Shown in pieces: positions 13,788 to 17,712 of a DNA stretch of 64,000 bases. The stretch's first letter is position 1. The number at the start of each line of letters is the position of its first letter. Below the pieces are notes generated by a model. The model saw nothing but the letters and a program-made list of their open reading frames with translations. It did no database searches and was not told where the DNA came from. The DNA comes from an uncultured Spirochaetales bacterium (GTDB taxonomy: Bacteria > Spirochaetota > Spirochaetia > Sphaerochaetales > Sphaerochaetaceae), in assembly GCA_949282255.1 (NCBI GenBank), contig CASDPA010000004.1, forward strand, positions 1-64,000. Direction: 5' to 3'. The translations under genes were made by a program, and so were the position numbers.

Positions 13788-15575
13788 TTAACGCACGCTG
13801 ATCGCAGAGAACTTACATGTGTCCTTACAGACGCCGCACTTGATACATACCTGGGTGTTAATCGAATGAGGCTGCTTGAGCGCTCCGGAAATAGCACCTA
13901 CAGGACACTTTCTTGCACATGCCGTACACCCGATACACTTGCTTGGATCGATGGAATATGTGATAAGCTTCTTACACTTTCCGGAAGGACACTTCTTATC
14001 ATGGATATGCGCCTCGTATTCCTCAGGGAAATACCGAAGAGTGGAAAGAACTGGGTTTGGAGCCGTCTGTCCGAGAGCACAAAGGCTTCCCTTCTGCATG
14101 GCAAGCGCAATCTGGCGCATCTGGGCAACATCATCCTCGCTCGCCTTTCCTTCGGTGATCTTCTCCAAAAGATTGCAAAGCGTCTTTCCTCCGATACGGC
14201 AAGGAGCACACTTTCCACAGGATTCATCGACTGTAAAATTAAGATAGAACTTTGCAACGTCCACGATGCAGTCGTCCTCATCCATAACAATCATACCACC
14301 GGAACCCATCATGGAGCCGATCTTCATAAGTCCGCCGAAATCTATCGGGGTGTCAAGGTTGGCTTCTGTAATAACTCCACCTGAAGGACCACCGGTCTGC
14401 ACAGCCTTGAATTTCTTGCCGTGGTTTATACCGCCGCCGATATCAAAAACAATCTCTCTGAGGGTGGTTCCCATCGGGACCTCCACAAGACCGGAGTTGC
14501 ATATCTTGCCGGTCAGTGCAAAAACCTTTGTTCCATGGCTGTCGGCAGTACCAATCCTGCTGAACCATTCTCCACCTTTTGTTATGATGACAGGAATATT
14601 GGCCCATGTCTCAACGTTGTTGATGACGGTAGGCTTTCCCCATAGTCCCTTGTTTGCCGGGAATGGCGGTCTTGGCTGAGGCATGCCCCTGTGTCCTTCA
14701 ATGGACTGGAGAAGAGCGGTTTCCTCACCACAGACGAATGCGCCGGCACCAAGTCTGATCTCGATATCATAATCGAATCCGCTTCCAAGGATGTCCTTTC
14801 CAAGAAGGCCATACTCCCTCGCCTGCTTCATAGCAACTTCGAGACGATGGATTGCAAGAGGATATTCAGCTCTGATGTAAATATATCCCTGATGCGCTCC
14901 GATGCACTTTCCACAAATCGTCATGGCTTCCAAAACGGAATGAGGATCCCCTTCCAGCGTGGACCTGTCCATATATGCGCCCGGGTCTCCCTCGTCGGCA
15001 TTGCAGACGACGTATTTGACATCCCCTTCAGCCTGCTTCGTGAAATTCCATTTCATCCAGGTCGGGAATCCGGCGCCACCCCTTCCGCGCAAGCCTGCGA
15101 CCTTGAGCTCCTCTATGATATCATCCGGAGTCATTTCGAAAAGGACCTTCTCCAACGCCTTGTATCCGTCGCGGGCGATATACTCATCAATATTCTCCGG
15201 ATCGATTGTACCGCAGTTGCGCAATACGATCCTCATCTGCTTGTTGTAGAACTGGATGTCCTGAACTTCCTCGTACGGCTTTCTGACAGTATGGCCATAC
15301 TGAAGCCTGGTGACTTCCCTTCCCTTTACGACATGCTCGCTTATGATTTCCTTTGCATCCTCAGGCTTTACCTGAACATAGAAACTGTCCTCAGGAAGGA
15401 CCTTGACGATCGGCCCCTGCTCGCAGAAACCGAAGCATCCGGTTTTGATCACCTGCACCTGATCGGCAACACCCTGGTTTTTAGCTTCCTCAATCAGGTT
15501 GCGGTAAATCAGATCGGAGCGGGAAGATTCACAACCTGTTCCTCCACAGACCAAGATATAGTTCTTAAATGCCAT
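13788..15575 (-). CDS. hydB: NuoF-like flavoprotein subunit of [FeFe] hydrogenase (HydB/HndC)
   Basis: 595 aa. N-terminal thioredoxin-like [2Fe-2S] domain (CGGTGC and CFGFC, residues 10-55), NuoF FMN/NADH domain (GRGGAGFPTWMKW, GAGAFVCGEETALLQSIEG), SLBB region, the [4Fe-4S] motif SCGKCAPCR, and two C-terminal [4Fe-4S] clusters (CIGCTACARKC, CIKCGVCKDTC). It is the NAD(H)-reacting and bifurcating subunit in the family. Sits between hndB-like and hydA with 10-15 nt gaps, each gene with an AGGAGG site. Confidence 0.95.
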   Translation of the reverse strand: MAFKNYILVCGGTGCESSRSDLIYRNLIEEAKNQGVADQVQVIKTGCFGFCEQGPIVKVLPEDSFYVQVKPEDAKEIISEHVVKGREVTRLQYGHTVRKPYEEVQDIQFYNKQMRIVLRNCGTIDPENIDEYIARDGYKALEKVLFEMTPDDIIEELKVAGLRGRGGAGFPTWMKWNFTKQAEGDVKYVVCNADEGDPGAYMDRSTLEGDPHSVLEAMTICGKCIGAHQGYIYIRAEYPLAIHRLEVAMKQAREYGLLGKDILGSGFDYDIEIRLGAGAFVCGEETALLQSIEGHRGMPQPRPPFPANKGLWGKPTVINNVETWANIPVIITKGGEWFSRIGTADSHGTKVFALTGKICNSGLVEVPMGTTLREIVFDIGGGINHGKKFKAVQTGGPSGGVITEANLDTPIDFGGLMKIGSMMGSGGMIVMDEDDCIVDVAKFYLNFTVDESCGKCAPCRIGGKTLCNLLEKITEGKASEDDVAQMRQIALAMQKGSLCALGQTAPNPVLSTLRYFPEEYEAHIHDKKCPSGKCKKLITYSIDPSKCIGCTACARKCPVGAISGALKQPHSINTQVCIKCGVCKDTCKFSAISVR

Positions 15576-15584
15576 GACTTCCTC

Positions 15585-15959
15585 CTACTCTTCCTTGATC
15601 TCAACGACCTTTTCCTTGATGACCTTTCCTGCAACAAGGGTTTGATCTATGATCTTTGCAACATCGGACTTTTCAACCTTGCCATAGCTCACAAGCCCAA
15701 GCTCCGATGTATGGATCTGAACGACAGGTTCATAACCGGCACCTACTGCGCCGGTCTGGGTGATGATGACATCATCCAGCCTCTTCTTTTCACAGAGATC
15801 TGCAAACTCATTCAAAATAACCTTGGCACCCTTTTCCAGGCCCGCAGTTCCCATTGCAACGATAACGTGCTTCTTCCTGTTATGGATATCACGCTTTTTC
15901 ATGTTCTCCGCTTCTTTTTCCCTGATCTGGTGAAGCGCTTCTAAAGTCAGCTTTGCCAT
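15585..15959 (-). CDS. HndB-like thioredoxin-fold protein lacking cluster cysteines
   Basis: 124 aa, aligned by eye to the small HndB-type [2Fe-2S] ferredoxin subunit found in [FeFe] hydrogenase operons. The usual cysteines are gone: the first motif reads VAMGTAGLEKGA (family TCG), and the second reads TQTGAVGAGYEP (family TGCIGLC). The only Cys (DLCEK) is not at a ligand position. The fold-defining spacing is kept, so I infer a structural or assembly subunit that does not bind a [2Fe-2S] cluster. Third gene of the hyd operon, 2 nt after the ATPase gene. Confidence 0.75.
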   Translation of the reverse strand: MAKLTLEALHQIREKEAENMKKRDIHNRKKHVIVAMGTAGLEKGAKVILNEFADLCEKKRLDDVIITQTGAVGAGYEPVVQIHTSELGLVSYGKVEKSDVAKIIDQTLVAGKVIKEKVVEIKEE

Positions 15960-15961
15960 AA

Positions 15962-16447
15962 TTATCTGCTCCTCTTTTCCTTTTCTTCCGCCATTCTCCT
16001 GAGACTGTTCATGCCACCTGCCGTTTTCACCGATATCCCAGCCTTCTCCAAAGCCACGCCATCCAATGTGTAGAGAAGGATGCCATCCTGCATCACCTCG
16101 ACAACCAAATGCGGAAAAGCGTTGAAAAGCACCGGTACTGTTGCCGACAGATCTTCCAAGGATCCATCAAGCCCTACGGAAAAATGCAGAACACTTTTCC
16201 CATCCTTCTTCTCAAGCCCGCATCTGCCACCCGACGCCTCTTTGACAAGGAAGAGCCCTCTTCCCCGTCCTGCCCCTTTTGAAGAAACGCCTTGAGAAAA
16301 AGCATTGTCGGGGAGCGCTTTTGATGAATCATCAGAAACAACCACATCGACCATGCCGCAGTGCCTGTCGACCTTTATCGAGATATCTTCGGCACCGGCC
16401 TCCAAGCTGTTCCTTACAGCTTCGACCAGCAAGTCGGCATTATCCAT
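15962..16447 (-). CDS. GHKL ATPase-domain protein of the hydrogenase operon
   Basis: 161 aa. A histidine-kinase-type ATP-binding fold without a phosphorylation domain: N box EAVRNSLEAGA (residues 8-20), G1-like VSDDSSKALP and G2-like GAGRGRGLFLVKEA. Similar small ATPase-like genes lie between NuoE-like and NuoF-like subunits in other hydrogenase operons. It overlaps the hydC stop in TGATG, so its level is tied to HydC. Role unknown; a switch, chaperone or anti-sigma-type partner are all possible. Confidence 0.75.
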   Translation of the reverse strand: MDNADLLVEAVRNSLEAGAEDISIKVDRHCGMVDVVVSDDSSKALPDNAFSQGVSSKGAGRGRGLFLVKEASGGRCGLEKKDGKSVLHFSVGLDGSLEDLSATVPVLFNAFPHLVVEVMQDGILLYTLDGVALEKAGISVKTAGGMNSLRRMAEEKEKRSR

Positions 16448-16911
16448 CAGGCGAACTTATCCAACACCCCTGCTATCTGGTTCTTGGTGATTTTTCCAAA
16501 AACCTCACCGGCGATGGTCATGACGGGAGCAAGCCCACAGCAGCCTACACAACGTACGGCTTCAAGAGAGAATTTCCCATCCTCGGTCAGGCCGCCGACA
16601 GTAAGGCCAAGCTGTTTGCCAAGCTCATCGATGATGATATCACCACCCTTGAGGTAACAAGCAGTTCCAAGACAAACCTGGATATTGTATTTTCCCGGCT
16701 TATTAAGTTTGAAAAAGTGGTAGAATGTGACAACACCCCAAATGGTGGCCAAAGGAACCCCAAGTTTCTTGGAGACCTCATCCGCAGCTTCCCTGGAAAT
16801 ATAACCAAACTCCTCCTGGACCTTGTGGAGCACCATGATGAGGTTGCCTGGCTTATCCTTCCATTCATCAATAAATTGATTCAATTCTGCAGAAAAAATA
16901 TTCTGAGACAT
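16447..16911 (-). CDS. hydC: NuoE-like [2Fe-2S] subunit of [FeFe] hydrogenase (HydC/HndA)
   Basis: 154 aa. N-terminal helical bundle (LIMVLHKVQEEFGYIS) then thioredoxin-like domain with [2Fe-2S] ligands CLGTAC (first pair) and CVGCCG (second pair). It carries electrons between NuoF-like HydB and the rest of the complex. The start is MSQNIF with AAGGAG upstream; a longer open frame to 16965 runs through the promoter and is rejected. First gene of the operon, divergent from rex. Confidence 0.93.
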   Translation of the reverse strand: MSQNIFSAELNQFIDEWKDKPGNLIMVLHKVQEEFGYISREAADEVSKKLGVPLATIWGVVTFYHFFKLNKPGKYNIQVCLGTACYLKGGDIIIDELGKQLGLTVGGLTEDGKFSLEAVRCVGCCGLAPVMTIAGEVFGKITKNQIAGVLDKFA

Positions 16912-16936: not shown

Positions 16937-16978
16937 ATAATAGCTAAAAAAGTATCTAATAGCAATTCAATGTCACAA
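16937..16978 (-). promoter_or_regulatory. Hydrogenase operon promoter with Rex-like half-site
   Basis: Minus strand: -35 TTGCTA (16960-16965), 17-nt spacer, -10 TATTAT (16937-16942). TTGTGA (16973-16978), one half of the Rex consensus TTGTGAA-N4-TTCACAA, lies 7 bp upstream of the -35. The second half is not recognisable, so Rex binding is inference. Confidence 0.5.
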
Positions 16979-17076: not shown

Positions 17077-17712
17077 ATGAATAGTGACATGCTTGTAAGA
17101 ATTACCAGATACTACAGGGCACTTAATCGTCTAAGGTCAATCGGATTGGAAAAAGTATTCGCACATAACCTTGCCGATGCAGCCGGTGTGAGCGCGGCAA
17201 TAGTGAGAAAAGATTTTTCAATTCTCGAGATCCATGGTCAAAAAAGAGGTGGCTACGAAATAGTTGAACTGATCGCAAAACTGGGCTCAATCCTTGGCAA
17301 AGGCAATCCACAGAACGTCATTGTCATCGGCTGTGGCCGAATAGGAAAAGCATTGATGCACTATTCCGGTTTTGAGCCTGATGGCATAAGGATTGTCGCA
17401 GGTTTCGATTCCGATCCGCTCGTATATTCCGATGCATCACATCCGATACCCGTATATCCCCTTTCAAGGCTTGAAGAGGTGATAGAAGCAATGGATGTGA
17501 ATGTGGCGATAATAACCGTTCCCGAATCCTCGGCAGCAGATTGCTACCAGAGGCTTGTGGAGGCCAACATACAGGGCGTTCTAAATTTCTCCCCTGTCAC
17601 ACTCAAGCCTCAGGTTATCGACGGTAAATTGAGACCGGTGGTCCACAACATCAATATCGCGTTGGAATTGGAACAGATATTTTATGAAATCCAATATCCA
17701 AAGGAAGCATGA
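17077..17712 (+). CDS. rex: Redox-sensing transcriptional repressor Rex
   Basis: 211 aa. N-terminal winged helix (residues 1-75, with the recognition stretch GVSAAIVRKDFS) and Rossmann domain with GCGRIGKA at 85-92, ending in a domain-swap helix (NIALELEQIFYEI). Rex senses the NADH/NAD+ ratio and releases DNA when NADH is high, de-repressing fermentative and hydrogen-producing genes. Divergence from the hydrogenase operon fits that role. AGGAG lies 8 nt before the ATG. Confidence 0.95.
   Translation: MNSDMLVRITRYYRALNRLRSIGLEKVFAHNLADAAGVSAAIVRKDFSILEIHGQKRGGYEIVELIAKLGSILGKGNPQNVIVIGCGRIGKALMHYSGFEPDGIRIVAGFDSDPLVYSDASHPIPVYPLSRLEEVIEAMDVNVAIITVPESSAADCYQRLVEANIQGVLNFSPVTLKPQVIDGKLRPVVHNINIALELEQIFYEIQYPKEA

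Follow-up and report, generated by a model that had tools for sequence, protein, structure and literature searches.

The role of the small fourth subunit of HydABCD-type hydrogenases (HydD or HndB) is unsettled in print, as far as the accessible parts of the reports cited here go. Acetobacterium woodii HydD is predicted to carry no cofactor (PMC6288185) and Solidesulfovibrio fructosivorans HndB is described as probably free of a redox centre (PMC10084766), so that a cofactor-free fourth subunit has already been suspected. For the HydD of C. subterraneus, which co-purifies in a stable (HydABCD)2 complex when made in E. coli, the authors predict one Fe-S cluster (PMC4694547). The HydD of Acetomicrobium mobile is reported not to be part of the holoenzyme (PMC9304861) and is absent from the subunits of the purified NiFe enzyme (PMC8880783); for it and for HisK, a part in maturation or regulation is assumed (PMC8880783, PMC9304861). 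In the structure of the A. mobile enzyme, the C-terminal domain of HydC is stabilised by a neighbouring domain (PMC8880783).

We analysed a window of 64,000 nucleotides from an uncultured Spirochaetales bacterium, in which a hydrogenase operon runs along the minus strand in the order hydC/nuoE, GHKL ATPase, hndB, hydB/nuoF and hydA. Its features, with the divergent gene beside it, are as follows.

17077..17712, plus strand: Rex-like redox repressor, divergent from the operon
16447..16911, minus strand: HydC/NuoE-like [2Fe-2S] thioredoxin-like subunit
15962..16447, minus strand: short GHKL-type ATPase-like protein, 161 aa (Pfam matches below cut-off), in the position of 'HisK'/Tte0891 in other operons
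15585..15959, minus strand: HndB/HydD-like protein, 124 aa, ATG start (ORF translation, profile, alignment), with an N-terminal helix (about residues 1-30) and a thioredoxin-like domain (alignment, profile)
15840..15857, minus strand: first site loop of HndB, residues 35-40, AMGTAG (family consensus GMGTCG)
15735..15755, minus strand: second site loop of HndB, residues 69-75, TGAVGAG (typical three-cysteine form TGCMGLC)
13788..15575, minus strand: HydB/NuoF-like flavoprotein, 595 aa
12034..13773, minus strand: HydA, [FeFe] hydrogenase catalytic subunit (NCBIfam NF040763, group A6, over cut-off)

HydA scores 811 bits against a cut-off of 765 for NF040763, the group A6 NADH-dependent [FeFe] hydrogenases, and the domains and cysteines of HydB include the FMN domain, the N-terminal [2Fe-2S] ligands and the ligands of two C-terminal [4Fe-4S] clusters. 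For hydC, the ATG at 16911, which has a Shine-Dalgarno-like stretch, was chosen as the start over a longer TTG alternative at 16965. A Rex operator was considered and rejected: 11 matches were found in the window against 10.3 expected, none of them ahead of the operon. A search of the source genome found no second stand-alone hndB copy, and a scan of genome contigs for named relatives gave two near ones, both uncultured Spirochaetales.

The gene order is that of the C. subterraneus operon, which likewise has a small fourth subunit and carries tte0891 between hydC and hydD (PMC4694547); from its place, we infer Tte0891 to be an ATPase of the GHKL type. The two fourth subunits, compared by description only, differ in that one Fe-S cluster is predicted for the C. 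subterraneus protein whereas the window HndB lacks the ligands. A. woodii HydD and S. fructosivorans HndB, again likened by description only, resemble it as small fourth subunits of electron-bifurcating hydrogenases. The NiFe-HydABCSL operon of A. mobile also combines hydD and hisK in a HydABC-type operon, but its enzyme is NiFe rather than [FeFe], and its HydD lies outside the holoenzyme (PMC9304861).

Missing cysteines in the window HndB

The gene of the window protein immediately precedes hydB/nuoF and shares an operon with hydC/nuoE and hydA, and alignment and profile give the protein the conserved N-terminal helix and thioredoxin-like domain of HndB/HydD. The preliminary description had seen in it a conserved operon place and a thioredoxin-like [2Fe-2S] frame with Ala or Gly at the cluster cysteines (GTAG, TGAVGAG), all of which we confirm. 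The frame is real, because an HndB profile built from 16 rows finds HydB N-terminal domains in the PDB, at E values from 6e-18 (the best, 9n5u) to 3e-6. These homologous HydB/NuoF domains (PDB 9n5u, 8oh5, 9bov, 7t2r, 7q4v, 8a6t and 7p5h) differ from HndB in being part of a large flavoprotein, and the window HydB has four cysteines there whereas the window HndB has none: against VCGGTGC ... TGCFGFC in the neighbouring HydB domain, HndB has Ala or Gly at all four ligand places. The supposed cluster set needs one correction. The ligands are indeed absent, but the expectation of four does not hold, since HndB relatives with cysteines read MGTCG ... GCxGxC, that is, three and not four, and a single cysteine (C56) remains off-site.

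At the family's three cysteine places the window HndB has A39, A71 and A74 (or G75), the last ambiguity arising from a one-residue deletion at the site that is common to all 33 rows read from the genus. C56, its sole cysteine, falls in a predicted helix of a low-confidence model. That model (AlphaFold2 on three rows, the window, L031 and L032) reached a pLDDT of 54.8 and a pTM of 0.40, and only the order of its predicted helices and strands was used; a Foldseek search with it against the PDB returned nothing at or below E 0.001. The four cysteines of PF01257 (C-x4-C ... C-x3-C) are likewise absent, with no match to that family up to E 1, and all Pfam and NCBIfam matches of the protein lie under the curated cut-offs. 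The three-cysteine set, which the window HndB lacks, is usual and not universal among HndBs (98/148), and was therefore not treated as defining for HndB/HydD.

The same three-cysteine pattern occurs in the solved domains 9n5u, 8oh5 and 9bov. We take 8oh5 to be the chain of StnB, and presume that the HndB of S. fructosivorans carries the set as well. In the accessible text on StnB, none of the clusters reported can be assigned to its three-cysteine domain (PMC10482914), and two of four cysteines are described as changed to glycine (PMC7483475).

All 33 HndB copies read from the window's genus, three further matches being left out, are free of cysteine at the three places. The gene is nonetheless under purifying selection: dN/dS is 0.099 and 0.088 between the window and its two named relatives, with a median of 0.109 and a maximum of 0.31 over 64 same-genus pairs. 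The absence of the cysteines is thus neither chance nor sequencing error, given 33 of 33 copies and dN/dS of 0.09-0.11 for the nearest pairs, and the folded protein would be expected to hold no cluster. That hndB is a decaying remnant without function, as the lost site, the absence of HndB from some related hydrogenase operons and one broken frame elsewhere (genome G348) might suggest, is extremely improbable against a dN/dS of about 0.1, the presence of hndB in 32 of 36 same-genus genomes and the intact operon spacing. The broken frame itself (L207:2-514, plus strand), interrupted by two stops beside a contig start in a 1.2-Mb genome, is probably a decaying copy, with its first cysteine still there.

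Distribution of the three cysteines among Spirochaetota

The preliminary description had proposed an alignment across spirochaete and clostridial hnd/hyd operons. Our sample comprised 149 rows from 148 Spirochaetota genomes, fetched from matches ordered best first, with weaker matches mostly left out. One (L049), which had scored as full but is a HydB start truncated by its contig end, was removed from the count. Of the remaining 148 stand-alone HndBs, 98 carry the full set of three cysteines, 50 lack all of them and not one has a partial set. The residues in the cysteine-free rows vary, with S, A or Q at the first place, S, E, G, A, V or L at the second and P, D, G, S, A, K or a gap at the third; 40 of the 50 have no cysteine anywhere in the protein. 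From this all-or-none count, the varied replacements and the rows without any cysteine, the three cysteines look like one site that is kept or dropped as a unit.

Changes of state number seven on the tree of the neighbouring HydBs and seven on an HndB tree built without the site columns, at least four in each being forced by well-supported branches. State counts alone cannot separate loss from gain, and loss appears the simpler reading because the three-cysteine pattern is also found in Bacteroidota and Bacillota copies and in the three solved HydB-type domains. That the window's genus lost the cysteines twice, or that the sister genus g29 regained them, was considered and rejected: the HydB tree places g29 inside the genus, but an AU test does not reject the genus as one clade (p-AU 0.461), and all HndBs read from the genus share the one-residue deletion at the site.

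Further copies lie outside these counts. Those of L224 and L225 (f24, genus g24) and of L226 are also cysteine-free; L224 and L225 differ in their site residues (L224 has GMGERGIQKGAK, for instance), which suggests more independent losses. A search for copies in plasmid records gave four, from P. distasonis, S. variabile, A. noterae and Cetobacterium. The P. distasonis and S. variabile HndBs have the three cysteines, and the A. noterae match is the start of a HydB-like protein. In the P. distasonis record (NZ_OY725779.1, labelled a plasmid) the gene order is HndB-HydB-HydA-HydC, with no ATPase gene among them.

It is conceivable that other ligands, be they C56, Asp, Glu or His side chains, or the backbone, still allow the window HndB to bind a cluster or metal. 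An Asp does stand at the third place in 12 of the 50 cysteine-free rows (SSD in eight, SGD in three, SAD in one), though the window is not among these. We regard such binding as very improbable, since the site residues vary among the cysteine-free rows and 40 of them have no cysteine at all. A conserved histidine, H107, is no better placed. Found in 98 of 99 rows with cysteines, it is replaced by Thr in the window (codon 15639-15641, minus strand) and in ten relatives, which form an 11-row subclade, and it was rejected as a fourth ligand in general because it is still His in 39 of the 50 cysteine-free rows.

The loss does not extend to the flavoprotein. HydB's own four domain cysteines are kept in 49 of 49 readable cysteine-free operons and in 97-98 of 98 others, so that the loss of the site in the accessory HndB leaves the bifurcating core intact.

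The HndB helix as a separate chain or as part of HydB

The window HydB starts nine residues ahead of the first cysteine of its own four-cysteine thioredoxin-like domain and is thus without an N-terminal helix. Such short starts are general beside HndB: all 147 scored HydBs with an adjacent HndB begin 1-16 residues ahead of the first domain cysteine. Eleven HydBs matched no pattern and were unscored, seven of them in HndB loci (L150 twice, L149, L048, L046, L044 and L019); L019 is cut, and the others, too, have printed starts that look short. Under an alternative start rule, one HndB-linked HydB (L045) begins 28 residues before the cysteine, and the others in HndB loci 7-16. Three loci (L150, L160 and L162) contain HydB-like frames of 1012-1028 residues that adjoin HndB and have extra domains.

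HydBs of operons lacking HndB look different. Fifteen candidate genomes were picked by eye where a profile search showed no strong stand-alone HndB match, and 13 of them were judged, G045 being excluded for an operon cut by a contig end and G348 for its broken HndB at a contig end. In these 13 genomes, from four families, 12 of 15 hydrogenase HydBs carry an N-terminal extension of 30-37 residues, and in 10 of the 15 the match to the HndB N-helix profile beats at least 499 of 500 shuffles. In these genomes hydB comes immediately after hydC wherever the upstream side can be seen. By comparison, only one of 32 upstream stretches of HndB-linked HydBs is helix-like. Fisher's test on this pattern gave p values of 1e-15 and 1e-12, which overstate the case because the rows are related. 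Two of the 15 (in G306 and G370) were known beforehand to begin with the helix, and the gene upstream in G306 is not visible.

Five of the 15 are without a clearly recognised helix. The L204 extension is unrecognised by the helix profile (224 of 500 shuffles) and that of L236 is borderline (11 of 500). L209, L230 and L238 have unsure starts; an ATG further up in L238 would yield an extension like that of L240, and the HydA of L209 sits on another contig. Set aside from the 15 were the HydBs of L211, L235 and L237, which are not beside a group A HydA and have neither HndB nor helix, and L239, a short frame.

In some genomes the two arrangements occur together. G416 holds an HndB-linked HydB as well as a helix-bearing one. 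In G364, one HydB is linked to HndB and another has an HndB-type domain; the N-terminus of the latter is unrecognised as the helix, and this HydB has no group A HydA next to it. Eight long frames (L212-L219) were picked because they match the HndB profile; in L212-L215, the usual domain of HydB is replaced by an HndB-type three-cysteine domain complete with its helix. Of the eight, the 15 include only L214 and L215 (the HydBs of G370 and G306, also listed as L227 and L228). Solved HydBs agree with the two arrangements: 8a6t, 9mqx and 7p5h match the HndB profile from position 5-21, and chains 7t2r, 7q4v, 8oh5, 9bov and 9n5u only from 28-31; 7p5h is the T. maritima protein, from a trimeric enzyme (PMC9499530).

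The two proteins are joined in genome G393, where one of the 15 HndB-free HydBs (row L230; L241:2680-4629, minus strand) is a fused protein of 649 residues encoded right after hydC and before hydA. It consists of a cysteine-free HndB domain (residues 22-115, 54 bits), a HydB thioredoxin-like domain that is also without its cysteines (residues 126-214, 33 bits) and then the HydB core, ending ahead of the C-terminal [4Fe-4S] domain. The HydA of this genome, at 761.5 bits, is slightly under the group A6 cut-off of 765, and the enzyme is perhaps a non-bifurcating NADH hydrogenase.

Taken with the extension or helix in HndB-free HydBs and the short starts beside HndB, the cysteine-free fusion leads us to favour, with somewhat better than even confidence, the explanation that HndB is most likely the N-terminal structural module of HydB supplied in trans, with no redox duty in this genus.

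The neighbouring ATPase and the role of HndB

In 127 of 149 rows the gap between hydC and hndB is 400-700 bases, which leaves room for one gene, and the gap genes looked at (10 read, 18 aligned) encode GHKL-type ATPases. Such a conserved neighbour might point to a role for HndB in assembly or maturation, in which it would bind HydB or HydC while these fold or receive their clusters and then leave the finished enzyme. An assembly or regulatory role is also favoured by the A. mobile HydD, which, with HisK, is absent from the enzyme and assumed to serve maturation or regulation in the accessible accounts (PMC8880783, PMC9304861). Against departure from the finished enzyme stand the C. subterraneus HydD, which co-purifies in a stable four-subunit complex (PMC4694547), and the relatives in which this helix, in one case with the entire domain, is covalently built into the HydB chain. 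We consider this the main rival to a structural module, though somewhat unlikely. The preliminary description had suggested scaffolding or assembly. A scaffold or non-redox structural role is supported by the exchange of the helix between HndB and HydB, the fusion and the C. subterraneus co-purification, while an assembly factor is possible and not needed.

Alternatively, HndB and the ATPase could work as a pair to regulate the hydrogenase, for instance as a switch responsive to both redox state and ATP, which would persist in this genus in reduced form. The two genes are conserved neighbours, and in a simple pattern test the DNGKGM-like G1 box of the ATPase was absent from the window's genus (0/31) and one sister genus (0/4) and present in 75 of 95 rows elsewhere. 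In the window ATPase (15962-16447) the box is altered to DDSS, as in the genus, and the gene is nonetheless kept; in an 18-row alignment the ATPase-like protein of both genera looks shorter. In the window's genus both accessory proteins have therefore lost a cofactor site. A general tie between cysteine loss and an altered ATPase was nevertheless rejected, because the sister genus with the altered ATPase retains the HndB cysteines and the six other cysteine-free lineages whose ATPase was looked at (f12, f1g36, f27, f29, p_f39 and p_f50) keep a G1 box. Moreover, in 13 of 149 rows hndB directly follows hydC with no gene between, four of these being cysteine-free. A regulatory pair thus seems quite unlikely. 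Since the sister genus has lost the box but keeps its cysteines, the order of events seems to have been the ATPase box first and the HndB cysteines next, with H107 lost last in the 11-row subclade.

The structural-module reading can be put in terms of a mechanism. The enzyme would be a group A [FeFe] hydrogenase that is linked to NADH and probably electron-bifurcating. As its fourth subunit (HndB/HydD), the window HndB would work as a detached HydB N-terminal module, a conserved helix followed by a thioredoxin-like domain. The helix would dock on the HydB/HydC region, and the domain would pack there and stabilise the complex, next to the domain that stabilises the HydC C-terminal domain in the A. 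mobile structure (PMC8880783). Many three-subunit relatives have the same helix within HydB, and one has an entire cysteine-free HndB fused to HydB. The ancestral three-cysteine HndB may carry a [2Fe-2S] cluster or other metal or redox site; this site would be dispensable, apparently lost as a unit several times and, in this genus, gone, so that HndB would carry no electrons there. What is observed is the homology, the place in the operon, the complete loss of the site, the selection on the gene, the alternation of the helix between chains and the fusion; docking, packing against HydB and HydC, and stabilisation are what these observations would suggest. A bolder version, which we think unlikely, would make HndB a detachable and interchangeable HydB domain that sets the bifurcation gate by clamping the mobile domain of HydC, with the three-cysteine site as an optional redox or metal switch; in lineages such as this genus, the switch discarded and the neighbour's ATP site altered, the enzyme would be permanently set.

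The natural cysteine-free lineages, the all-or-none pattern, the exchange between HndB and the HydB N-terminus and the HndB-HydB fusion are new here; we found no prior description of them in the accessible literature searched, which mostly excludes subscription journals. The natural cysteine-free forms, being under selection, show that HndB has a function that needs no cluster. Where the three cysteines are retained, their all-or-none occurrence suggests a single site, and the exchange with the HydB N-terminus says where to look for HndB in the structure of the enzyme.
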